DNA of 48,003 nt, taken from assembly GCA_009838975.1 (NCBI GenBank), contig VXQO01000108.1:1-48003 (forward strand), given 5' to 3'. The notes under the pieces were generated by a model that did no database searches, was not told the origin of the DNA, and saw only the letters and a program-made list of their open reading frames with translations. The stretch is from Gemmatimonadota bacterium (GTDB lineage Bacteria > Gemmatimonadota > Gemmatimonadetes > Longimicrobiales > Gaopeijiaceae). A program made the translations under genes and the position numbers. Numbering within the stretch: position 1 is the first letter of the stretch; each line of letters opens with the position of its first letter. Positions 1,649 through 44,634 of this stretch are shown here, one piece after another.

Positions 1649-2862
1649 AACGCAGCCACGGAGACCGCCGCTTCGGCGCGGTCGAGTGCCCGTTCCAGGT
1701 CGGCGACGAGGTCTTCGGCCGCTTCGATGCCGACCGAGAGCCTGAGCAGGCCCTGGCCGATCCCGGCGGCCACGCGGGCGGGCTCGTCCATCGATGCGTG
1801 TGTCATGGTCCACGGGTGGGTGACCAGACTCTCCACTCCTCCCAGCGACTCGGCCAGCGCGAAGTGCGTGATGCCGTCGACGAACGCATCCACCGCCGCC
1901 CTTCCCCCCCTCAACTCGAAGGAAGCGAGGCTGCCCCAGCCGGTCTGCTGGCGGCGGGCGATCTCGTGCCCCGGATGCGTCGGAAGGCTCGGGTGGTTGA
2001 CCCGGGTGACCGCGTCGCTGGCGGCGAGCACGTCGACCACGCGCAGCGCGTTTTCCTCGTGCACGCGGCTGCGGGCGTGCAGGGTGCGCATGCCGCGGAG
2101 CGTGAGGTAGGAATCGAATGGCGATCCGGACAGCCCCATGGCGTTGGTCCACCACGCCACCTCCTCGAGCAGGTCTTCGTCGGCGGCCACGACGGCACCC
2201 CCCACGATGTCGCTGTGCCCGTTGAGGAACTTGGTCGTGGAATGGACGACCAGATCGGCGCCGTGTTCCAGCGGACGCTGGTTGACCGGCGAGAGGAAGG
2301 TGTTGTCGGCCACGCAGATGGCGCCGATCTCGCCCGCGAGGGCCGCCCACGCCGCGATGTCGGTAATGCGCAGGTGCGGATTGCTGGGCGTCTCGATCCA
2401 GATCATGCGCGGACGCAGTTCGCGCGCGAGGTCCAGGGTCGCGGGATCCCAGGGGTCCGCGAATTCGACCCGGTAGGCGCCCTTGTCCGCCTCGTGGCGG
2501 AAGAGGCGGTAGCTGCCCCCGTAACAGTCGCGCGGGGCCAGCAGCAGTTCGTCCGACGAGAGCAGGCGGGTGGCGGCGACGATCGCCGACATGCCGGACG
2601 AGGTCACGGACGCGCCGCATCCGCCCTCCAGTTCGGCGATCGCGTCGGCGGCGAGGTCGCGCGTGGGGTTCGCGGTACGTGTGTAGTCGTACTTCCCGTA
2701 GACGCCGGGGGACTCGAAGAGGTAGTTCGTGGAGAGGTGGATCGGCGGCATGACCGCGTGGTGGGCCGTGTCGACGCCGATGCCGGCCCGGACGGTGCGG
2801 GTGACGGTCGAGGCGCGGGGCGCGGAAGGCGGGCGGGGGCTGGAACCGTTCAGGGTGCTCAT
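1645..2862 (-). CDS. metB: Cystathionine gamma-synthase / Cys-Met PLP enzyme
   Basis: PLP-dependent gamma-replacement enzyme of the Cys/Met metabolism family, 405 residues, the usual length. Activated homoserine (acetyl or succinyl ester from the neighbouring metX) plus cysteine would give cystathionine. The PLP lysine is Lys211 in HSTTKFLNGHSD, preceded by the ADNTF aspartate that contacts the PLP ring; TSSGMSAI near residues 87-93 is the phosphate-cup region. I start at ATG 2862, which overlaps the metX stop as ATGA, rather than further upstream, since the extra 39 residues of the longer frame lie inside metX and look like out-of-frame sequence. An O-acetylhomoserine sulfhydrylase or cystathionine gamma-lyase role cannot be excluded by eye, but the operon favours methionine synthesis. 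Confidence 0.88.
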   Translation of the reverse strand: MSTLNGSSPRPPSAPRASTVTRTVRAGIGVDTAHHAVMPPIHLSTNYLFESPGVYGKYDYTRTANPTRDLAADAIAELEGGCGASVTSSGMSAIVAATRLLSSDELLLAPRDCYGGSYRLFRHEADKGAYRVEFADPWDPATLDLARELRPRMIWIETPSNPHLRITDIAAWAALAGEIGAICVADNTFLSPVNQRPLEHGADLVVHSTTKFLNGHSDIVGGAVVAADEDLLEEVAWWTNAMGLSGSPFDSYLTLRGMRTLHARSRVHEENALRVVDVLAASDAVTRVNHPSLPTHPGHEIARRQQTGWGSLASFELRGGRAAVDAFVDGITHFALAESLGGVESLVTHPWTMTHASMDEPARVAAGIGQGLLRLSVGIEAAEDLVADLERALDRAEAAVSVAAL

Positions 2863-3917
2863 CGAACCACCTCCGGGGTGCGTGGCAGGGACGCGTTCAG
2901 CAGGGACGTGACCTGACCGACCTCCTTGAGGAAGGCGTCGTGGCCGAAAAGCGAGGTCACGGTGACGTGTCGGGGACATCGGCCGCTCCGGGTCGCCAGT
3001 TCGTCGACGAGCCAGGGCGGGACGAGGGCATCGGTGTCGAAGGACACCAGCAGCGTTTCGGGCGGTAGCGACTCGGGGGACGTGCCGTGCAGGTCGATCG
3101 ACTCGGAGAGCGCGAGGAAGCGCTCGGTGTCGAAGCGGTGGGCGAAGTCGGCCCCGCGGGCGTCAAGGTACTCCTCAACGGGGAAGCGGGCGGGGGTCCG
3201 ACCGGGCTGGCCTGGGTGCAGGGGACGCGCGGAGAAGCGCTCTTCGAACTCCTCGGGGCTTCGGTAGGTAGTCATCGCGAGGGCGCGCGCCAGGGCGAGA
3301 CCGCGCGCCGGCTGACCGGTGTCGGCGCCGAGCGACGCGGCCGCGCGCTGCACCGACCGGATTCCGGTGGCCATGGGGTGCGTGCGGTGGGACGCGCAGA
3401 GGATGACGAGCCGCGCGGTCCGCTCCGGGAAGAGTTCGGCGAAGGCCAGCGCGACCATCCCGCCGTACGAGGATCCCACGAACGAGGCGGCGGTGACGCC
3501 GAGTTCGTCGAGCGCGGCCGCGACGGCGCGGGCCTGATCGTGGGTTGTGACCGGGCGAAGGAGGCCGTTTTCCGTCCTTCCACCGAGGAAGTCGATGCCG
3601 ATGAGCAGGTGGCGCGCCGGGTCGAGGGCGTCGCCCTCCCCCACCACCCCAGGCCACCATCCCTTGCTCGGATCGGAGGTTGTGGGCGCGAGGTGCCGGC
3701 CCGCCGAGATTCCCCCGAGGACTACGGTTGCGGGCGCGTCGGCCGGACCCTGGGCCTCGTAGGGGACTTGGACCGTACGCGGCCCCAGGTGATCGAATGT
3801 AAGGCGTGGGCGCACGGAGCCCGAGCGAACCGTCGGGATCGGGACGCGGGGACATCGCTCAGGCGCGTCATACGGCGCGGCGTATGAGGCAACGCGAGCG
3901 GCAGAGCAGTTGGCCAT
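2859..3917 (-). CDS. metX: Homoserine O-acyltransferase, MetX type
   Basis: Alpha/beta-hydrolase-fold acyltransferase that activates homoserine with acetyl- or succinyl-CoA. The 352-residue protein has an oxyanion-type GGISAG segment (residues 68-73), the nucleophile elbow GSSYGG with Ser150, a candidate acid in SFDTDALVPP, and the catalytic His in GHDAFL near the C-terminus. All of these fit MetX. The start at ATG 3917 has a GGAGAGG Shine-Dalgarno stretch just upstream; longer in-frame extensions run into the riboswitch leader. It is the first gene after the SAM-I riboswitch and overlaps metB by 4 nt. Whether the acyl donor is acetyl- or succinyl-CoA is not settled from the sequence. Confidence 0.87.
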   Translation of the reverse strand: MANCSAARVASYAAPYDAPERCPRVPIPTVRSGSVRPRLTFDHLGPRTVQVPYEAQGPADAPATVVLGGISAGRHLAPTTSDPSKGWWPGVVGEGDALDPARHLLIGIDFLGGRTENGLLRPVTTHDQARAVAAALDELGVTAASFVGSSYGGMVALAFAELFPERTARLVILCASHRTHPMATGIRSVQRAAASLGADTGQPARGLALARALAMTTYRSPEEFEERFSARPLHPGQPGRTPARFPVEEYLDARGADFAHRFDTERFLALSESIDLHGTSPESLPPETLLVSFDTDALVPPWLVDELATRSGRCPRHVTVTSLFGHDAFLKEVGQVTSLLNASLPRTPEVVR

Positions 3918-4005: not shown

Positions 4006-4011
4006 GAGCGG

Positions 4012-4126
4012 CTCATCTTTACGGCGGACGCGCGTCCGTCGCAGGAGTTGGCACCTTCGTGGGAATGCCACTTCCCACAGGTTGCCCCGGCTTCAACGGG
4101 CCTGTCCCTCAGCCGGTCTCGATGAG
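4012..4126 (-). promoter_or_regulatory. SAM-I (S-box) riboswitch
   Basis: On the minus strand the leader carries the S-box signature in order: P1 5' arm CTCATC followed by GAGACCGG, then GAGGGACAGGCCCG and GAAGCCGGGGCAACC (P2 with its kink-turn and pseudoknot side), a P3 hairpin with arms GTGGGAA/TTCCCAC, the GGTGCCAACTCC junction, a P4 hairpin CGGACG/CGTCCG, and the P1 3' arm GATGAG. P1 arms pair 6 of 6. This fits the known SAM-I consensus closely. It sits between a strong promoter and metX, so SAM abundance should shut off the four-gene operon. Confidence 0.93.
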
Positions 4127-4139
4127 TTGTCGTGCACGC

Positions 4140-34940: not shown

Positions 34941-37643
34941 ATGCGACTACCGTCGAGAACGCCCAGCAGGAATGTCGCCTTGCAGCTGCCTACCCTTGCG
35001 GTCCTGGCGGCGCTCGGCCCACCGACCCTCTTCGCCCAGCAGGCCACGATCACCGGGCGGGTCACCGACATCGAGACCGGCGCGGCGCTGTCGGACGCCA
35101 CCGTCCAGGTGCTCGGCGTGCAATCGGGGACCGTCGCCACCAACGCGTCAGGCGCCTTCCAGGTCACCGTCCAGGCGGGCACCCACTCCATCGTGGTCAC
35201 GCGGATCGGCTACGAGACTTTCCGCATGGACGGTGTCGGCGTAGAGGCGGGGGGAACGGCGACCGTCACCATCGAACTCCGTTCCCGGGCGCTGGCGCTC
35301 AACCCGCTGGTGGTCACCGCGTCGCGCCGCGAGGAGAAGGAGCTCGACGCCCCGGCGTCCGTCTCGACGCTCACCGGTGAGCAGATCTCGAGGATGATCG
35401 CACGCACGCCGGCCGATCACATCAAGACGCTCCCCGGGGTCGACCTCGCCACCACGGGACTGACGCAGAGCTATGTGGTCGTGCGGGGATTCAACAACGT
35501 CGCGTCGGGCCGGTTGCTGAGCATCGTGGACAACCGGTATGCGCGCATCCCCGCGCTGAGGATCAACGCGATCAACATGATCCCCACGACCGACATGGAC
35601 ATCGAGAGGATCGAGCTGGCCCGCGGACCGGGGGCCGCGCTCTACGGACCCAACGCGGCCGAGGGCGTCATGCACGTCATTACGGCCTCGCCGATCGACA
35701 GGCCGGGGAACACGGTGTCGCTGGCCGGCGGGGAACGGTCGCTCTTCCAGCTGCTCTTCCGGAGCGCCAACGCGGTGTCGGAGCGGTTCGGCCTGAAGGT
35801 CTCGGGACAGTATCTGCGGGGAACCGACTGGGAATTCACCGACCCCTGGGAGGTGGCGGCCCGCGAGGCGAACCCGGGTCACCCGCGCATCGGCGTGCGC
35901 ACTCCGCTCAACGAGCGCTACTTCGTCGACATCCGGACCGACTACCGCTTTGCCGACGACGGCGAGTTCATACTCTCGGGCGGGCTGAACAACTCGCTGA
36001 GCAGCATCAACCTGACCACCGTGGGGTCCTCTCAGACGCACGACTGGCAGTACCGCTACGCGCAGGCGCGGTTTCTGAAGGGCCGGCTGTTCGCGCAGTT
36101 CTTCCTCAACCAGACGCATTCGGGCGACAACAGCTATCTGCTGCGAAGCGGGGAGCTGATCGTCGACCGGTCGCGCACGATGGCGGCGCAGCTGCAGCAC
36201 GGACTCGATCTGGGCGATCGGCAGCGCTTCACCTACGGGTTCGACTGGCAGCGCATCGAGCCCCGCTCCGAAGGCACGATCTACGGCCGCAACGAGGACG
36301 ACGACCTGCTGGTCGAGTCGGGCGTCTATCTGCACTCCGAGACGCGGCTGGGCGATCGGCTGGACCTGGTGGCCGCGCTGAGGGTCGACGACCACAACCG
36401 TCTGGCCAACGTCAACGTCTCGCCGCGGGCCGCGCTGGTCTTCCGCCCCGCCGAGGGCCACAACCTGCGCCTGACCTGGAACCAGGCGTTCGCCACGCCC
36501 GGGACTTCGTCGCTGTTCCTGGACATCCCGACGGGGATGATCCCCATCGCGCCCGGCGTCGGGTATACGCTGCGGGCGGTGGGGGTGCCCGCGGGAGGGC
36601 TGACCTTCTCGGACCGCTGTCAGGGTGGACACATGGGGCACTGCATGCGCTCGCCGTTCCTGCCGGGCCAGCTGCCTGCCAACGCGGCGCTGTTCTGGGA
36701 TGCGCTGGTCGGCCGGTTCGCCCCCGAGACTCTGAGGTCTTTCCTTCTGGGCCCGGGAAGCCGACCCGGTGACCCTGCCCTGGGGACCGTGTTTCGGCGC
36801 CTCAACACCGATGCGCTGGGTCCCGCGGGCGGCGAGGTGTTCCCGGTCGATCAGGGGCCGGGCGACCTGCCCGCACTGGTGCCGACGGTGTTCAACAGCA
36901 TCGAAGCCGGGTACAAGGGGCTGATCCGGGACCGCGTGAGGCTGGCCGCCGACGTGTACTTCTCCAACGTCGAGAACTTCATCGGCGCGCTGAAGGTCGA
37001 GACCCCCAACGTCTTCCTGGACCCGGCCTCGACGGGCGCGTTCCTCGCGGGCCGGCTCGGGCCGCTGGTTCAGGCGGGGCTCGTGACTTCCGAACAGATC
37101 GCGGAGCTGGCCGCGGGGCTCGCCGCCGTGCCGATCGGCGCCGTGACTCCCGACCAGTTCGACTCGCCGGACATCGTCATGGCCTCTCGCAACTTCGGCT
37201 CGGCCAGCTACTGGGGAACGGACCTGTCGGCCCAGGTCATCGCCTCCGACCGGTTGAGCCTGACCGCCGGCTACTCATTCCAGAGCCAGGAGTGTTTCGA
37301 CTTCAATGACGACCGCGACTGCCCCGGGAGCGACGACCTGGCGCTGAACGCCCCCAGTCACAAGGGCTCCCTCGGGATCGCCTTCACCGACCGCGCCCGG
37401 GGTTTTCTGTTCGACTCCCGCTGGCGGTTCTCCGACGGGTTCGAGATGCGATCGGGCGTTTTCGCCGGCACGGTGGATGCCTACCACGTCCTGGATGTGA
37501 CGACGGGCTATCAGCTGCCTTTCCAGCCCAATGCGCGCCTGGAGCTGACGGTGTACAACGCGCTCAACAACCTGCACCGGGAGTTCGTGGGGGCGCCGGA
37601 GTTGGGGAGACTGGCGCTGGTGAGGGTGCGGTACGACTTCTGA
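34941..37643 (+). CDS. TonB-dependent outer-membrane receptor with carboxypeptidase-regulatory-like N-domain
   Basis: A 900-residue receptor. Signal peptide (LPTLAVLAALGPPTLFAQ), then a CarboxypepD_reg-like domain (QATITGRVTDIETGAALSDA, GTHSIVVTRIGYETFRMDG), a TonB-box-like VVTASRREEKELDAP, a plug domain (YVVVRGFNNVASGRLLSIVD, RIELARGPGAALYGPNAAEG) and a 22-strand-type barrel ending LALVRVRYDF with the terminal Phe typical of barrel insertion. There is no STN domain, unlike the receptor at 13800-16598, so it is not expected to signal through a FecR. No adjacent partner lipoprotein. The cargo is unknown. ATG 34941 is supported by the signal peptide. Confidence 0.9.
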   Translation: MRLPSRTPSRNVALQLPTLAVLAALGPPTLFAQQATITGRVTDIETGAALSDATVQVLGVQSGTVATNASGAFQVTVQAGTHSIVVTRIGYETFRMDGVGVEAGGTATVTIELRSRALALNPLVVTASRREEKELDAPASVSTLTGEQISRMIARTPADHIKTLPGVDLATTGLTQSYVVVRGFNNVASGRLLSIVDNRYARIPALRINAINMIPTTDMDIERIELARGPGAALYGPNAAEGVMHVITASPIDRPGNTVSLAGGERSLFQLLFRSANAVSERFGLKVSGQYLRGTDWEFTDPWEVAAREANPGHPRIGVRTPLNERYFVDIRTDYRFADDGEFILSGGLNNSLSSINLTTVGSSQTHDWQYRYAQARFLKGRLFAQFFLNQTHSGDNSYLLRSGELIVDRSRTMAAQLQHGLDLGDRQRFTYGFDWQRIEPRSEGTIYGRNEDDDLLVESGVYLHSETRLGDRLDLVAALRVDDHNRLANVNVSPRAALVFRPAEGHNLRLTWNQAFATPGTSSLFLDIPTGMIPIAPGVGYTLRAVGVPAGGLTFSDRCQGGHMGHCMRSPFLPGQLPANAALFWDALVGRFAPETLRSFLLGPGSRPGDPALGTVFRRLNTDALGPAGGEVFPVDQGPGDLPALVPTVFNSIEAGYKGLIRDRVRLAADVYFSNVENFIGALKVETPNVFLDPASTGAFLAGRLGPLVQAGLVTSEQIAELAAGLAAVPIGAVTPDQFDSPDIVMASRNFGSASYWGTDLSAQVIASDRLSLTAGYSFQSQECFDFNDDRDCPGSDDLALNAPSHKGSLGIAFTDRARGFLFDSRWRFSDGFEMRSGVFAGTVDAYHVLDVTTGYQLPFQPNARLELTVYNALNNLHREFVGAPELGRLALVRVRYDF

Positions 37644-37660
37644 AGCCGAGGGCGCCCCCC

Positions 37661-38344
37661 TTAGCGTCCCACCGTGATCGTCGCGCTTCCCGGATCGCGC
37701 TGCTCGTAGCTGCGCGCCGCCGCCTGCGAGACCTGGCCGCCGTACTCGCGCAGGCGGGCCCGGTCGTCGGTCCAGAAGCGGAAGAGCGTGCCGGACTGCG
37801 GGATCGCCCCGGCCACGAAGACGAGCACGCCGCCCCGTGCGGGGACCTGGTAGAGCGTGAGATCCGGGGCCGCCTGCAGCGAATCGAACATCGGACCCGC
37901 GACGAAGAGGACCACTGCGCCCCAATCCGGCTGGTCCTGCTGGATGTCGACGTTCAGGTAGCCGAAACGATCGTCCACGTTCAACCCGATCCGTTGCTGG
38001 GCCGACAGCCCGGCAGGGTCGCGGGCAGTCACGGTAACCGTACCCTGGCCCGCAGCCAGCCCAACGATCGTGACGACGCTCCCGGCGACCGAGGCCGAAG
38101 CCACCGTTCCGGGAGAAACCGTGGCGTCGTAGGTGAGGCGGTCGCCGTCCGGGTCGGTGAAGTACCCCGACACATCCACGGTGAAGGTCTCGTCGACGAA
38201 GATTCTCGCTGCGGGAACGGTGCCGGTGGCCAACGGTGGGCGGTTCGCCGGGGGTGGTGGCGCGACCGGCTCGTCTCCACCGCATGAGTAGGCCGCTACG
38301 ACAAGCGTCACGGCGGTCCCGACAAGGAGCACGATCCTCTTCAT
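37661..38344 (-). CDS. Small lipoprotein with an Ig/cadherin-like domain
   Basis: A 227-residue predicted lipoprotein: hydrophobic leader and Cys21 in VAAYSC, a proline-rich linker (EPVAPPPPANRPP), then a cadherin/Ig-like fold with SGYFTDPDGDRLTYDA and GQGTVTVTARDPAGLS. The last third has no recognised family. ATG 38344 overlaps the stop of the BNR-repeat protein by 4 nt, so the two are translationally coupled and probably work together at the cell surface. Function unknown. Confidence 0.8.
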   Translation of the reverse strand: MKRIVLLVGTAVTLVVAAYSCGGDEPVAPPPPANRPPLATGTVPAARIFVDETFTVDVSGYFTDPDGDRLTYDATVSPGTVASASVAGSVVTIVGLAAGQGTVTVTARDPAGLSAQQRIGLNVDDRFGYLNVDIQQDQPDWGAVVLFVAGPMFDSLQAAPDLTLYQVPARGGVLVFVAGAIPQSGTLFRFWTDDRARLREYGGQVSQAAARSYEQRDPGSATITVGR

Positions 38345-41300
38345 CCCGGCTCCCTCCTTTCCTGGCGCACATCGCCCGGGAGTCTCTCACAGCCCGACCC
38401 TTCGCCGATGGTGCAGTGGTCCAGCCACTTCAGCACGTCGCCGGCGTTGAAGACCTCGTCGCGGTTGCCGAACCAGTCCAGGAAGCTCTCCTGCCCGGTC
38501 TCCAGGCGTTCGAGACCGAGCAGATGGTGCGCCGCGTCCTCGACGGTCATCGGCGGTACGACCTGGAAGCGGTCCACGATGAATCCGACAAGGTCCGGCC
38601 GCCCATCCACGCGGATCGTGACCGTGTCCTCATAGACTCCGGGATCGAGGGACTCCGACGATCGGGTCCAGACGATGGGATCTTCGTGGCCTCCCCCGCC
38701 CCGCTCTATCGCGAGCCATTCCGAAGTGCTCGACGCGGTCCAGGTCGCCGAATCGGCGCCGAAGCCGGCCAGTCCCGCCGAGATGGAGTCGACAGAGACA
38801 AATGACCAGCCCGATAGTCCGTAGCTCGGGACAGCGCGCAGCGCGGACACGCTCAACGGCGGCTCCACGGACAGCGTGTACACCAGGGCAGCGGGGCTTC
38901 CGGTCGCCAGGCTTGCCTCGACCACCACCCGTTCAGTGTATGTTCCCACGTCGATGCTGTCGGGATCCACGGTCCACGTCACGAATCCTTCTCCGACACC
39001 GGAATCGTTTCGCAGATCCAGCCATTGACTGTTCCCCGGCTGCGTCGCGCGCCACTCGACAGTGGCCGCCTGCGCCCCTTCGAAGGCGACCGCAACCGAG
39101 TCCTCGAAGGGTTCGGTGTCGTAGACAAGCACCGATTCCCGAGTCTCGTGTCGGGCCAGCGCCATGTGGCCCCTGGGGGCAGCGGCGTGCACGCGCACCG
39201 GAATGGTCATGGCGTCCGACACCCCGGACACCCAGACCTCCATTGCAGCCTCGTGGTCACCCGGTGTGAGTTCGGATGCCGCGATACTGTAGGTGAAGCG
39301 CCCACGCCCCTGTCCTATGCCCCTGTTGCTGGTGAGCGCGAGCCACGGCGCGCTGCCTGACACAGCCGCGGTCCACCCGGCCCGGTAATCGGCCCTTCCG
39401 TGCGGCGCCACGATCACGCGGCCGTTCAGCTGCTGGTCCACTCCCAACAGGACCGTGTCGTTCACCGCTTCCGGCCGCACCCGCGCCGTGAGGGGGACAT
39501 CGATCGGGATCTCGAACATGCCTCGTCCGTGGGTGGCGGCGACCAGCCTGCCTGTTCCCGGGGCGACCGCCAGGTCGAAGACCGCGACGGTCGGGAATCC
39601 GTCGGCAAGCATGTCCCAGCTATCGCCTCCGCGGGGGGAGTGGAAGACCCCCAGGTCGGTTCCGATGTAGATGCCGTCGGGGTTCTCGGGATCGTACAGA
39701 ACGGCGTTGACGGGATGGTCGGTGAGGTTGCCGGTGCGGTCGCGCCAGGTACGTCCGCCATCGGTGGTCTGGAAGACGTGTCCGGTCCCGAATCCGCCTA
39801 CAACAGCGTACGCCTGGTCCGCTTCGTCGGGATGCACGGCCAGGTCGCCGATGTAGCGAGGTGCCCTCAGCCCCAACTCCGATTCTTCCCAGGTCAGGCC
39901 ACCGTCGTGGGTGAATACAATCCGGGAGAGGTCAATGGGACGCGTGCGCACGATGGATGCGTATACCGTGTTCTCGTCGGAGGGAGCAGGGGCGATGGCC
40001 CTGACGGTGGCGCGCCGGGGGCTGCTGTAGATGCGCACCCAGTTGTTGGCCGAGTTTTCCGTCCGGTAGATGCTCTGCGTGCCGAAGTAGAGCCTCCGCG
40101 AGTCGACAGGATCCATGACGAATGGGGGGATGAACGCCGCCCTGTCGTTCCGGTCGATGCCTGACCGCACATACCGACCGTTCTTGAATGGGCCGTTGGG
40201 CCATTGCGCTTCGCCGTACCAGACATCGGGGTTCTCGGCATCGATGGCCGTGAATCCGCCGTCGCCGCCAAAGATCTTCGTCCATGGGGCGGTCGGCGCA
40301 GCGCCGCGCAACGTGCCGTGATCCTGTGTTCCGCCCAGCGCCTCGACAGGGCGCGCCGGATGAGGGGTGACCCCCGGATAGAACTGCGCAATCGCGAGGT
40401 CGGTGGCCAGGGATGTCCAGCTGATCCCGGCGTCCATGGAGCGGTACACGCCGCCGTCGTTGGCCAGGTAGAGAGCGTCGGGACCGCTGAGGGTGTCGAA
40501 GACCAGCAGGTGTTCATCCACATACACGTTGTCCGGATGGACCCAATCGAACGTCTCTCCGCCGTCTTGCGAGATGAACAGACGCTGCCCGGCGCCCAGA
40601 TGGAGACGGTCGGGATTCAGCGGATGCACCGCCAGCGTCAGGGCGTACCAGCATACCAATGCACAGCTGCTTCCACTCGCTTCGAGTTCCCGCCAGGTGG
40701 CCGCGCCGTCGTCGGTGCGGTAGACCAGCAACCCACCCCGCGCCGCTTCCTCCCCGATGTCCCGGATCGCCGCGTAGAGGATATCGGGATCGGATGGCGC
40801 GATGGCGAGGTTGATGCGGGTGATCTCCGTATCTCGCATGCCGCTCGCGGAGCGGGTCCAGGTAACGCCTCCGTTCGTGGACTTGTAGACCCCGTCCCGC
40901 ATCAGGGCCGCATGGAGGATCGACGGATCGGCCCTGTTCATGACGAGGTCGTTCACGACCCCTGCGAGAACCCCGCGCCAGGTGCGGCCGCTGTCCGTCG
41001 ACCGGAACAGACCGAAGTCCGTGGCGGCCAGGACGGTGGTCGAGGCGGTCGACCCGGCTGTCAGGGGGTCGATGAGGACTCTGGATATTCTGGCCCCACC
41101 CCTCGAGGCATGGAGGAAGACGCTCGCGCGCTGCCGGTCCCACTCCCACGTCGAGCCCCCGTCGAGGGACCGCAGCACGCCGCAGCCGTAGTAGCTGTCT
41201 CCCGAGAAGTGCTGCTCGCCGGTACCGGCATAGATGATGTCGGGATCGACCGGGTCGATGGCGATCGATCCCATTGCCAGCGAGCATTCGTGGTCCGACA

Positions 41301-41739
41301 GCGGGCTCCAGGAAGCGCCCCGGTCTTCGGTCTTCCAGACGCCCCCCTGAGCCGCGCCGATATAGACGATCGCGGGATCGTGCGGATGGATCGCGATTGC
41401 CGACACACGACCGGCCACCTGACCGCGCCGGGGGTCGTCGATCTGCGTCGGCCCAAGCGGTTGCCAACTGGAGAAGTGGCCTCCCCGGGGAGCGATACGG
41501 CGCAGGGCCATCGCCCGCTCGCGCGCCGCGCGCATTCGGGCGGAAACGCTGACCCCAGGCCCGGAATAGGTCCGAATACGCTCGTACTCCAGGCGTGCGA
41601 GAATACGGTCTGCTTCGTCGGTGTCCTGAGCCGTGGCGACAGCGGGCACGGTGAGGAGATGGAGCGCCAGCAGAAGGGTGCCGGGACGAAGGCAGGCCCT
41701 GGAATGGAGAGCTGCCCTCCGGTCCAGACAGGATTCCAT
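38341..41739 (-). CDS. Secreted sortilin/VPS10-like BNR beta-propeller protein
   Basis: An 1132-residue exported protein. A signal segment (LLLALHLLTVPAVATAQ) is followed by two beta-propeller-like regions with at least nine Asp-box (BNR) units: TEDRGASW, SLDGGSTW, STDSGRTW, STNGGVTW, SQDGGETF, SMDAGISW, THDGGLTW, TTDGGRTW and a variant TDDGAATW. Each unit marks a propeller hairpin; the set resembles sortilin-type glycan or protein binders rather than sialidases, since no sialidase arginine triad is seen. The C-terminal 350 residues are repeated beta-sandwich modules (PEAVNDTVLLGVDQQL and later VEPPLSVSALRAVPS). Start ATG 41739 is taken for the signal peptide. Overlaps the lipoprotein gene start by 4 nt. 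Confidence 0.82.
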   Translation of the reverse strand: MESCLDRRAALHSRACLRPGTLLLALHLLTVPAVATAQDTDEADRILARLEYERIRTYSGPGVSVSARMRAARERAMALRRIAPRGGHFSSWQPLGPTQIDDPRRGQVAGRVSAIAIHPHDPAIVYIGAAQGGVWKTEDRGASWSPLSDHECSLAMGSIAIDPVDPDIIYAGTGEQHFSGDSYYGCGVLRSLDGGSTWEWDRQRASVFLHASRGGARISRVLIDPLTAGSTASTTVLAATDFGLFRSTDSGRTWRGVLAGVVNDLVMNRADPSILHAALMRDGVYKSTNGGVTWTRSASGMRDTEITRINLAIAPSDPDILYAAIRDIGEEAARGGLLVYRTDDGAATWRELEASGSSCALVCWYALTLAVHPLNPDRLHLGAGQRLFISQDGGETFDWVHPDNVYVDEHLLVFDTLSGPDALYLANDGGVYRSMDAGISWTSLATDLAIAQFYPGVTPHPARPVEALGGTQDHGTLRGAAPTAPWTKIFGGDGGFTAIDAENPDVWYGEAQWPNGPFKNGRYVRSGIDRNDRAAFIPPFVMDPVDSRRLYFGTQSIYRTENSANNWVRIYSSPRRATVRAIAPAPSDENTVYASIVRTRPIDLSRIVFTHDGGLTWEESELGLRAPRYIGDLAVHPDEADQAYAVVGGFGTGHVFQTTDGGRTWRDRTGNLTDHPVNAVLYDPENPDGIYIGTDLGVFHSPRGGDSWDMLADGFPTVAVFDLAVAPGTGRLVAATHGRGMFEIPIDVPLTARVRPEAVNDTVLLGVDQQLNGRVIVAPHGRADYRAGWTAAVSGSAPWLALTSNRGIGQGRGRFTYSIAASELTPGDHEAAMEVWVSGVSDAMTIPVRVHAAAPRGHMALARHETRESVLVYDTEPFEDSVAVAFEGAQAATVEWRATQPGNSQWLDLRNDSGVGEGFVTWTVDPDSIDVGTYTERVVVEASLATGSPAALVYTLSVEPPLSVSALRAVPSYGLSGWSFVSVDSISAGLAGFGADSATWTASSTSEWLAIERGGGGHEDPIVWTRSSESLDPGVYEDTVTIRVDGRPDLVGFIVDRFQVVPPMTVEDAAHHLLGLERLETGQESFLDWFGNRDEVFNAGDVLKWLDHCTIGEGSGCERLPGDVRQERREPG

Positions 41740-41898
41740 CGTGGCCAGTGTCTTCCCCGCTTGAGTTTCGTGAAAGGTTTCCAGTATACGAAGCCGAACA
41801 GAGGTGCGCGCGGTTCGCCCCTTGCCAACGGTCCCCCCGATTCGGCTAACATCAGGGCGATTGCCAACGCTTCGCCATCTGAAATCGGATCGCCCGCG

Positions 41899-43002
41899 AT
41901 GAAAACCACCTGTCTTTTCGGCCTGCTTGTTGTCCTGCCGGCTCTGGCCTCCGCCCAGACGCCAGAGCTGGTCTACTTCTCGAACGTCTCCGCCACGGCT
42001 GGCGATGGCGGGCCCCTGACGACCGTCGAGGGGCAGACGGCCGCCACGCTGGACGCGCTCGGAGAACAACTTCGCGCGCACGGCCTCGGCTACGACGACG
42101 TCGTCGCGATGAACGTCTTCCTCCGGGACACCCGTCACTTCCAGGCGATGAACGGAGTCTACCGAGGCTACTTCGCCACCGACCCCCCGACGCGCGCCAC
42201 GGTCGAGGCCGACCTGCCCGACCGGGACGCGCTGGTGCAAATCACGGCAGTGGCTACACCCGACGAGACCGAGGTGATCTCGCCGGCCGGCTTGCAGTCG
42301 CCGGCGCTGCCGTATTCCTGGGGTATTCGCACGGGCGACGTGCTGTTCATCGCCGGGGCGACCAGCCGCGATCCCGACACCTATCAGCCGGTCGGCGGCG
42401 ACGTGCAGACCCAGACGCGGCGCGTCTTCGGCAACATCGGCATGGTGCTGGAGGCGGCGGGCATGGGCTATGGCGACCTGGTCGCGTGCAAGGTGTTCCT
42501 CGACGACGTGCGCCTCTGGGGCGACATGAACGCGGCGTACCGCGAGTTCGTGACGGCAGAGGACCCGCCGGCGCGGGCGGCGGTGCGCGGCGGTTTGATG
42601 AATCCGGCGTTCCTGGTCGAGATCCAGTGCGTGGCCGAGCAGTCGGACGAGCGGCGCGTCGTGCTGCGCGAGGGTCAGCGGCTCGGGCGCTCACCGCTGT
42701 CACCCGCGATCGCGACGGGTGAGCGGGTCTGGCTATCCGGGATGCTGGCGCGCGGCGACGGTGCGGAGGGCGAGGCGCGGGCGACGCTGGCCAGCCTGGG
42801 GGCGACGCTCGAGGCGGCCGGGCTGGGGTTCGGGGACGTGGAGGACGTGTGGGTCTATCTCACCGACGTGCGCGACGCGGAAGCCGTGTTGGGGGTGCTC
42901 GCAGAGGTGATGCCGGAAGGGGCGCCGATGCCTACGGTTGCCGGGCTGCCGCTGGTGGGCCGGCTGGGTGTCGAGATCCAGATGACGGCGGTGGTGCGCT
43001 GA
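41899..43002 (+). CDS. Exported protein of three tandem RidA (YjgF/UK114) domains
   Basis: A 367-residue protein with a signal peptide (residues 1-20, CLFGLLVVLPALASAQ) and three RidA-like domains at about 22-120, 126-237 and 252-367. RidA proteins hydrolyse reactive enamine/imine intermediates in the cytosol as trimers; one chain of three domains could form a pseudo-trimer. The arginine and glutamate that hold the imine carboxylate in RidA are seen together only in the middle domain (Arg216 in PPARAAVR, Glu231 in LVEIQCVAE). Domain 1 keeps the Arg (Arg99) but has Gln in place of Glu, and domain 3 has lost the Arg. Export is unusual for the family. ATG 41899 fits the signal peptide; the open frame upstream is antisense shadow. 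Its stop lies 7 nt before cobT. Confidence 0.85.
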   Translation: MKTTCLFGLLVVLPALASAQTPELVYFSNVSATAGDGGPLTTVEGQTAATLDALGEQLRAHGLGYDDVVAMNVFLRDTRHFQAMNGVYRGYFATDPPTRATVEADLPDRDALVQITAVATPDETEVISPAGLQSPALPYSWGIRTGDVLFIAGATSRDPDTYQPVGGDVQTQTRRVFGNIGMVLEAAGMGYGDLVACKVFLDDVRLWGDMNAAYREFVTAEDPPARAAVRGGLMNPAFLVEIQCVAEQSDERRVVLREGQRLGRSPLSPAIATGERVWLSGMLARGDGAEGEARATLASLGATLEAAGLGFGDVEDVWVYLTDVRDAEAVLGVLAEVMPEGAPMPTVAGLPLVGRLGVEIQMTAVVR

Positions 43003-43009
43003 GTCGCTG

Positions 43010-44104
43010 GTGAGCGGATCCGCCGCATTGCTGGAAGACGCGATCGGCCGTGTGGCGGCGGCCGTCCCGTTGGGCGACCGTGTTGCGGTTCAGTCGCACG
43101 TGGATGCGCTGACCAAGCCGCCGGGCAGCCTTGGCCGGCTGGAGGATCTGGCGCTGCAGGTCGGCTGCGTGCTGGGCGATCCGCCGCCCGCTCTCGACGA
43201 CGCCGTGGTCTTCGTCTTCGCGGCGGATCACGGTGTCGTCGCGCGGGGGGTTTCGGCGTATCCGGCCGAGGTAACGGCACAGATGTGCGCGAACTTCAGC
43301 GCGGGCGGTGCGGCGATCAACGTGCTTGCACGGGCGTGCGGCGCCGAGGTGCGGGTGGTCGACGTGGGGGTGGCGGTGGATGTTCGCCGGCTCGCGGGGA
43401 TCGAGCACCGGAAGGTGAGGGCGGGCACGCGCGATCTGTCCGTGGGGCCGGCGATGACGGCAAGTGAGGTCGTGGACGCGCTGGCTGTGGGGTTGGAGGT
43501 GGCCGGGAGTGCGGGCGCGCGGATCGTGGGCGTCGGCGAGATGGGCATCGGGAACACCACGGCGGCGGCGGCGGTGACGGCGTGCCTGACCGGGGTTGCA
43601 GTGCGCGATGTCGTGGGCCGCGGCACCGGGGTCGACGATCGCGGACTGGCCCGCAAGCGCGAGGTGGTGGAGCGCGCGGCGGCGCGGGTAGCGCGTCTGG
43701 ATGGTCCCCGCGATAACGCGCTCGAGGTACTTCGCCGGAACGGCGGACTCGAGATCGCCGCGATGGCGGGCGCGATGATCGGCGCGGCGGCGCGGGGCGC
43801 CCTGGTCCTGGTGGACGGCTTCATTTCCGCCGCCGCGGCGCTGGCGGCATGCCGTCTCTGCCCTGGCCTGCCGCCATACCTGGTCGCGTCTCACCGCTCG
43901 ACCGAGCCGGGCCACGCGGTGGTGCTCGATTCGCTTGGACTCACACCCATCCTCGACCTCGAGATGCGGCTGGGCGAGGGGACCGGGTGCGCGCTCGCGA
44001 TTCCCGGCGTGCGGGCGGCCGGCGCGCTACTGAGGGAGATGGCGACGTTCGAGTCGGCGCGGATCTCGGGGCCGAGCGGCGATCTGCCCGGGATCGCCCC
44101 ATGA
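43010..44104 (+). CDS. cobT: Nicotinate-nucleotide--dimethylbenzimidazole phosphoribosyltransferase
   Basis: Makes alpha-ribazole phosphate from dimethylbenzimidazole and nicotinate mononucleotide, for the lower ligand of cobalamin. The 364-residue protein shows KPPGSLGRLEDLALQ, FAADHGVVARGVSAYP, GEMGIGNTTAAAAV and, near the C-terminus, MRLGEGTGCALA with the catalytic glutamate. Length is usual. GTG 43010 starts 7 nt after the RidA stop and the stop overlaps the cobU ATG as ATGA. Confidence 0.93.
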   Translation: MSGSAALLEDAIGRVAAAVPLGDRVAVQSHVDALTKPPGSLGRLEDLALQVGCVLGDPPPALDDAVVFVFAADHGVVARGVSAYPAEVTAQMCANFSAGGAAINVLARACGAEVRVVDVGVAVDVRRLAGIEHRKVRAGTRDLSVGPAMTASEVVDALAVGLEVAGSAGARIVGVGEMGIGNTTAAAAVTACLTGVAVRDVVGRGTGVDDRGLARKREVVERAAARVARLDGPRDNALEVLRRNGGLEIAAMAGAMIGAAARGALVLVDGFISAAAALAACRLCPGLPPYLVASHRSTEPGHAVVLDSLGLTPILDLEMRLGEGTGCALAIPGVRAAGALLREMATFESARISGPSGDLPGIAP

Positions 44105-44634
44105 TGGAACTCATCGTGGTAACGGGGGGCGTCCGCTCCGGAAAGAGCCGTTGGGCGCAGGACAAGGCGCTGGCGCGTGGGGCGGAAGCGGTGACGGTGA
44201 TCGCGACCGCCGAAGCCGTCGACGACGAGATGCGTGACAGGATCGAGGCCCACCGCCGCGACCGGCCCTCGGGGTGGCGCACCATGGAGGCGCCGAAGCG
44301 GGCGGGCGAGGCGATCCTCGCCGCCGGGACGGACACGGTGGTGCTGGACTGCGTGACGGTGCTGACCGGGATGGCGATCGGGCGCGCGGGCGCGAAGAGC
44401 GAGGCGGCCGCGCTGGAAGCGATGGCCGCCGAGATCGACGGGATCCTCGAGGCGCGGGGGGCGCGCGCAGGGGTGCTCATCGTCGTGACGAACGAGGTGG
44501 GGTGGAGCGTGCACCCGCCCACCGCGCTGGGGCGGTGGTACCAGGACGGGCTGGGTATCGCCAATCAGCGTCTGGCCACAGCCGCGGACCAGGTGGTGCT
44601 CATGGTCTCCGGGCTGGAGACGCGGCTGAAGTGA
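44101..44634 (+). CDS. cobU: Adenosylcobinamide kinase / adenosylcobinamide-phosphate guanylyltransferase
   Basis: A 177-residue bifunctional enzyme that phosphorylates adenosylcobinamide and attaches GMP. The P-loop is GGVRSGKSR (residues 9-17), with VVLDCVTV and TNEVGWSVHPPTALGRWYQD plus NQRLA matching the CobU family C-terminal half. Ordinary length. ATG 44101 overlaps the cobT stop, and its own stop overlaps the cobS GTG, so the set is translationally coupled. Confidence 0.93.
   Translation: MMELIVVTGGVRSGKSRWAQDKALARGAEAVTVIATAEAVDDEMRDRIEAHRRDRPSGWRTMEAPKRAGEAILAAGTDTVVLDCVTVLTGMAIGRAGAKSEAAALEAMAAEIDGILEARGARAGVLIVVTNEVGWSVHPPTALGRWYQDGLGIANQRLATAADQVVLMVSGLETRLK

Follow-up and report, generated by a model that had tools for sequence, protein, structure and literature searches.

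Rid proteins are regarded as guards of cytosolic PLP enzymes. RidA, UK114, TdcF and AmnE consist of separate subunits and form homotrimers (a hexamer in AmnE). In the chorismatases FkbO and Hyg5, three Rid-like domains are joined in each chain, and there are fewer sites than in a homotrimer.

The pockets of Rid proteins are composite. The cleft of AmnE combines alpha4, beta4 and beta5 from one subunit with beta2, beta3, beta6, loop Lp1 and alpha4 from the next one (PMC6742747). Arg105 of TdcF is oriented by Asn88, whereas Glu120 forms a bond to residue 107 on the other side of the interface and packs against Gly31, a position that hence must be small (PMC1884159). Every N-terminus of salmon RidA pairs with the C-terminus of a neighbour (PMC7311433). 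The available text on Arabidopsis RidA and S. aureus YabJ confirms inter-subunit clefts and trimer contacts and contains nothing on handedness.

The name 3x-RidA was introduced in 2015 for triple Rid chains such as EF_0115 of Enterococcus faecalis, which were presumed to be covalent trimers (Niehaus et al. 2015, PMC4433059); this name was found in one paper only. Cyanuric acid hydrolase and barbiturase, compared here by description, are also single-chain pseudo-three-fold barrels with three YjgF-like domains and amide chemistry, but their barrel encloses one active site, which has Ser-Lys dyads (PMC4051656). The pathway of another Rid protein, OngD, was placed in the cytoplasm by its authors (PMC9537276). 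The papers listed by our literature searches name no exported Rid protein and include nothing relevant on RidA together with a cobalamin riboswitch.

Here we consider a triple-Rid protein encoded in a 48,003-nt stretch of Gemmatimonadota DNA, the whole of which is called the window below. Its contig is part of a 4.5-Mb genome, whose closest named records are Gemmatimonadota MAGs, one of them labelled Longimicrobiales. With three Rid domains fused per chain, the protein belongs to 3x-RidA as described (PMC4433059); EF_0115, known to us from that description only, likewise has three tandem domains, but the available text mentions neither export nor loss of half-sites. The pocket residues of RidA, UK114, TdcF and AmnE are the same as those of its middle domain, D2, whereas the whole protein is one asymmetric, apparently exported chain. 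The triple-Rid architecture is already known; the export, the fixed asymmetry of half-sites and the neighbourhood of C-N hydrolases are, as far as literature searches reach, new.

Gene, Leader and Distribution

The open reading frame at 41899–43002 of the forward strand encodes 367 amino acids and starts about 160 nt from a divergent gene (38341–41739). As the original prediction had it, three Rid domains, each a stretch matching PF01042, follow a Sec-type leader in one chain (Table 1).

Table 1. Features of the triple-Rid locus in the window (positions of the whole stretch).
Feature	Coordinates	Strand	Basis and remarks
TonB-dependent receptor	34941..37643	+	model matches; immediately precedes the Rid gene in some relatives (G015, G008)
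Predicted Sec-type signal peptide, 19 aa, ...ALASA/QTPELV	41899..41955	+	leader composition; similarity to five relatives' loci begins at 41938–41961
Rid domain D1, mature 1–103	41956..42264	+	strand 1 and Tyr17 loop missing; Asn66 and Arg80 kept (N88/R105 equivalents); Gln95 at Glu120 position in 36/36
Rid domain D2, mature 105–230	42268..42645	+	Tyr120, Gly134, Asn192, Arg207 (codon 42574–42576), Glu222 (codon 42619–42621); invariant Cys178/Cys225
Rid domain D3, mature 231–348	42646..42999	+	Gly262 and Glu340 retained; equivalents of Asn88 and Arg105 lost in 36/36; L/F/Y at Tyr17 position
cobT, GTG start	43010..44104	+	PF02277 (DBI_PRT, E 1.8e-126); TIGR03160, 418 bits
cobU	44101..44634	+	PF02283
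cobS	44631..45407	+	PF02654
cobC-like histidine phosphatase (alpha-ribazole phosphatase type)	45404..45952	+	PF00300; TIGR03162, 119.7 bits, below cut-off 162.9

A profile built from 22 relatives was searched against 395 Gemmatimonadota genomes, which set the scope of this survey, and matched in 37 of them: 18 of genus g1 (the window's own), 8 of g12, 4 of g25, 2 of g15, 1 of g14, 3 of family f6, and G302. The match in G302 is a divergent paralogue and was excluded, leaving 36 orthologues in two families; five further g1 genomes contain no Rid gene of this kind. In a scan of named genomes, 15 of 16 loci were full-length or nearly full-length relatives, all from Gemmatimonadota records, and the remaining one was a partial match in a Krumholzibacteriia record. 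No plasmid record covered 80% of the query.

The leader of the window protein, MKTTCLFGLLVVLPALASA, is followed by Q and contains a hydrophobic core and ASA at positions -3 to -1. Leaders of 25 of the 36 orthologues were compared; the set omits seven of the eight g12 genomes, G007 (truncated at a contig end) and G237, G316 and G272, inspected by eye outside this count. A nine-residue stretch with mean hydropathy of 2.03–3.24 was found in all 25 and Ala at -1 in 24, so that these leaders have the features of Sec export, namely an n-region, a hydrophobic core and small residues at -3/-1. Mature proteins of g1 are 79–98% identical to that of the window and their leaders are unrelated; at the DNA level, likeness to five relatives starts at 41938–41961, around the cleavage site. 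Since the unrelated leaders all have a hydrophobic core and precede near-identical mature parts, Sec export, assumed in the original prediction, is well supported by these sequence comparisons. Selection for a functioning leader rather than for its sequence would give such a pattern. A misplaced start without a true leader was ruled out, as relatives with different upstream DNA also carry leaders.

A 4.3-kb block of the window (37653–41950), with genes for an Ig/PKD-domain protein and a sortilin/BNR-repeat protein, is missing from G015 (96% identical), where 164 nt take its place. The junction coincides with the Rid signal peptide, and the leaders of the window and G015 are unrelated. Repeats upstream of the Rid gene included nothing noteworthy, and the finding of no promoter or terminator consensus at the locus is uninformative.

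Three Domains and Their Fold

The whole protein matches PF01042 at E 2e-55 (cut-off 27.3 bits), and in a search of its own genome D1, D2 and D3 match separately at E 1.5e-15, 2.8e-26 and 6.5e-10, each alone above the cut-off. TIGR00004 is also passed (146.9 bits against a cut-off of 106.25), with the best stretch in D2. Identities of 35% for D1/D2 and 28% for D2/D3 (hhalign) relate the domains to one another. Within the 18 g1 genomes (153 pairs), dN/dS was 0.211 for D1, 0.112 for D2 and 0.185 for D3; all three domains are maintained by selection, D2 most strongly.

An AlphaFold model based on 16 similar sequences was of moderate quality (pLDDT 68.7, pTM 0.64). Its best whole-chain matches were the chorismatases FkbO/Hyg5 (PDB 4bps, 5ag3, 5a3k), with Z of 18.9–19.4 over 275–277 residues; the match to 5ag3_A had Z 19.4 over 277 residues and rmsd 3.8. 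A full-length match to one-chain proteins with three Rid-like domains supports a ring, but not the details of pockets. Identity in the fold alignment is only 14–18%, no chorismatase occurs among the 60 listed of 66 profile matches, and no chorismatase model was among the NCBIfam/Pfam hits. Glu-334 of Hyg5 is given in the chorismatase papers, the available text of which does not assign it to a domain, so the handedness discussed below does not rest on this residue.

Cys178 and Cys225 of D2, both on predicted strands, are invariant in 36 of 36 orthologues and have no counterpart pair in D1 and D3 of the window protein; a disulfide between them is possible. Another Rid protein of the same genome, with a lipoprotein-like leader (locus L112, G000:C155:19754-20083), has Cys at both equivalent positions, which is not the case in a cytosolic-looking Rid (L111).

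Probable Composite Pockets

Residue equivalences to E. coli RidA were assigned by hand from the RidA sequence and numbering and are consistent with the alignments made. Counts refer to the 36 orthologues; the divergent G302 (33% identity), with different residues, was omitted. The N88 equivalent is present in D1 of all 36, in D2 of 35 and in D3 of none; that of R105 in 36, 36 and 0; that of G31 in 1, 36 and 36; and that of E120 in 0 (Gln in all 36), 36 and 36, respectively. At the Tyr17 position, the segment is missing from D1, D2 has Tyr in 36/36, and D3 has Leu in 28, Phe in 7 and Tyr in 1. The Arg105 position of D3 corresponds to mature residue 325, and across 320–331 a single Arg was found, at 322 in G272.

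The statement that Arg and Glu are retained together in the middle domain alone is correct to the letter: both pocket residues of the RidA subfamily, Arg105 and Glu120, occur in D2 of all 36 orthologues, D1 having Arg without Glu and D3 Glu without Arg. What did not hold is the domain as a unit of counting, since Rid pockets are common to neighbouring subunits. Based on the inter-subunit pockets of published structures, the half-sites were taken as {N88, R105} and {Tyr17 loop, G31, E120}. If the first half of each domain meets the second half of the next one, D1/D2 and D2/D3 are complete, the latter having Leu or Phe instead of Tyr in the majority of orthologues, and D3/D1 has lost both halves; the opposite handedness would leave one pocket complete and two half-broken. 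In 3 of 9 ways, two lost halves would meet in the same pocket by chance, a weak argument taken alone. The pairing of Di with Di+1 is favoured by the N-to-C contact of salmon RidA (PMC7311433) and by the order of domains along a covalent ring; this handedness is inferred from papers. Two complete pockets and one dismantled pocket, rather than one active domain, thus seem the most likely arrangement. Replacement of Glu120 in Salmonella RidA had little effect (PMC4433059), and the Glu may therefore not determine activity.

Cobalamin Genes and Riboswitches

The Rid stop codon ends at 43002 and cobT starts with GTG at 43010, which confirms the spacing of 7 nt; each successive pair of the four cob reading frames overlaps by 4 nt. 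The idea that the Rid gene heads a cobalamin operon stood for the window (G000) and for G003, G009, G015, G016 and G020, where cobT is directly downstream, and for G019, where the same order is split by a contig break. It failed elsewhere: a search of 42 genomes (the 37 with a Rid match and the five g1 genomes without one) found cobT in nine, every one from g1. In G008 it lies elsewhere in the genome, and cobT had no match in 27 of the 36 genomes with an orthologue. A cobT remnant is situated directly behind the Rid gene in G011 (G011:C70:24440-24571, in L021 and L090), consistent with loss of cob genes.

A cobalamin riboswitch was found on the Rid contig within about 11 kb in 15 of the 18 g1 genomes; G019 is the sixteenth linked genome, inferred from cobT split over two contig ends, and in G008 and G022 the Rid gene is unlinked. 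No such riboswitch was detected on the Rid contig of any of the 18 orthologues outside g1. The cobalamin link is thus real but limited to g1 (16/18 linked vs 0/18 elsewhere), and it is neither necessary nor general.

Gene order also varies. No cobalamin riboswitch was detected at E<=1 in the window between 41000 and 46500; the riboswitches of its contig (the nearest at G000:C103:54034-54220) and btuF-btuC-btuD lie past the window end. By position, a riboswitch precedes the Rid gene only in G001, G003, G005 and G016. The order is riboswitch-btuF-Rid-cobTUSC-btuC-btuD, on one strand, in G003 and G016, riboswitch-btuF-btuC-btuD-Rid-amidase in G001 and riboswitch-btuC-btuD-Rid-amidase in G005, in both cases on one strand from riboswitch to Rid. 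It is Rid-riboswitch-btuC-btuD in G006, G012 and G021 and Rid-riboswitch-btuF-btuC in G007. The names BtuC, BtuD and BtuF follow from NCBIfam matches below cut-offs together with the riboswitches. Co-regulation with cobalamin genes is probable in some species. A btuC-btuD-amidase string is retained without the Rid gene in G018 (L102) and G004 (L103).

C-N Hydrolase Neighbours

Enzymes acting on C-N bonds recur near the Rid gene. An AS-family amidase is the next gene in G001 and G005, and the Rid contigs of 10 of 18 g1 genomes (G001, G003, G005, G006, G009, G013, G016, G017, G021, G022) carry an amidase with at least 79% identity to the query. In g12, a GFO/IDH oxidoreductase and then an AS-family amidase come after the Rid gene in 8/8 genomes. 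The divergent neighbour in g25 is a creatininase in 4/4 genomes, and a convergent acetamidase/formamidase-family gene comes after Rid in both flanks read. In G189 (g15), the third upstream gene encodes a creatininase. The Rid gene of g14 has a metallo-hydrolase as its nearest neighbour, the third upstream gene being a flavin amine oxidase. The three orthologues of family f6 have no C-N hydrolase as a direct neighbour. Several neighbour enzymes appear to be exported, as judged by eye from their N-termini. Creatininases numbered 3–13 per genome in the ten genomes searched, and amidases were also many. The presence of four unrelated families of C-N hydrolases near one gene suggests amide/amine nitrogen chemistry.

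In G189, the triple Rid is fused in frame to a C-terminal Amidohydro_2 domain (PF04909) in a protein of 673 amino acids (L079, 8099–10120, reverse strand); this fusion is absent from G036, also of g15.

Proposed Function and Alternatives

The observed reading frame, three domains, export-type leader, conserved residues and neighbourhoods are, in our opinion, best explained by an exported Rid ring formed from one chain, with two pockets of composite type, which acts as an extracytoplasmic imine/enamine deaminase of an amide/amine-nitrogen pathway; the chances that this explanation is correct appear to us about even. The protein would be exported via Sec and fold outside the cytoplasm as a one-chain pseudo-trimer. 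D1 (Asn66, Arg80) would face D2 (Tyr120, Gly134, Glu222), and D2 (Asn192, Arg207) would face D3 (Gly262, Glu340), giving two pockets predicted to be complete for carboxylate binding and water positioning; the D3/D1 pocket would lack both halves. The predicted reaction is conversion of 2-imino acids or enamines into oxo acids and ammonia, and the probable substrate is an imine or enamine from extracytoplasmic breakdown of amides or amines by C-N hydrolases encoded beside Rid in most lineages. Cobalamin genes would be lineage-specific neighbours, sharing with Rid a riboswitch-led gene string in some species.

A more specific reading, put forward tentatively and with slightly less than even confidence, is that this reactive-imine deaminase kept exactly two composite pockets, had the third removed, and clears or uses imines formed by C-N hydrolases and oxidases outside the cytoplasm. 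As part of it, the protein may represent a periplasmic branch of metabolite-damage control, none being described in the papers found; this, too, we would rather call conceivable than probable.

The count of pockets depends on handedness. With the opposite one, D1/D3 alone would be complete and the other two half-broken, a reading close to what the original prediction implied and consistent with the fact that D2 alone has all the conserved residues of both halves. We find it rather unlikely, because clefts in the published structures need two adjacent subunits, so that no domain functions alone, and because the contact seen in salmon RidA (PMC7311433) points to Di/Di+1. Of similarly low probability is a non-catalytic extracytoplasmic holdase or binding scaffold, with the Rid ring merely a frame. 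In its favour are the loss of one pocket, the weaker constraint on D1 and D3 (dN/dS 0.211 and 0.185 vs 0.112 for D2) and a record of chaperone activity for a Rid protein (PMC4433059). Against it, the losses are not scattered, and the half-sites that remain show no or almost no variation across 36 orthologues, with the Gln of D1 found in 36/36. The redesigned scaffold of the original prediction is unneeded, as D2 is fully canonical and most constrained (0.112) and the composite count leaves two complete pockets.

A dedicated part in B12 acquisition, in which the exported Rid would handle a corrinoid or a by-product in uptake or salvage together with BtuF-BtuC-BtuD and CobTUSC, looks improbable. 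The riboswitch linkage in g1 (15/18, plus G019 inferred) and the riboswitch-led single-strand strings of G003, G016, G001 and G005 speak for it, but none of the 18 orthologues outside g1 shares a contig with a detected cobalamin riboswitch, G008 and G022 are unlinked within g1, and G018 and G004 retain btuC-btuD-amidase without Rid. Moreover, the riboswitch begins downstream of Rid in G006, G007, G012 and G021, none precedes the Rid gene of the window, and known Rid pockets bind small carboxylates. The existence of the Rid fusion without cobT in 27 of 36 carriers among the relatives surveyed contradicts a dedicated cob role; the earlier interpretation as a whole was partly supported. The survey is a caution against inferring function from a neighbour 7 nt away: the cob link is gone one genus away.

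A conserved exported Rid, in a genome where two further Rid genes have lipoprotein-like leaders, would imply that the handling of reactive imines extends beyond the cytoplasm. With half-sites switchable singly in one polypeptide, the asymmetric one-chain ring would allow the number of pockets required by a Rid trimer to be tested cleanly.

Further Observations

The window genome contains two further Rid genes with lipoprotein-like leaders. A single-domain Rid with such a leader (G000:C137, L004, frame ending at 1791) adjoins a reverse-strand gene at 1821–3194, the product of which has a twin-arginine-like leader and resembles a PLP enzyme (by eye, aminotransferase class V); an exported pair of PLP enzyme and Rid is possible there. 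In the window itself, a SAM riboswitch (RF00162, 76.8 bits) is located at 4010–4128 of the reverse strand, upstream of the reverse-strand genes at the window start.
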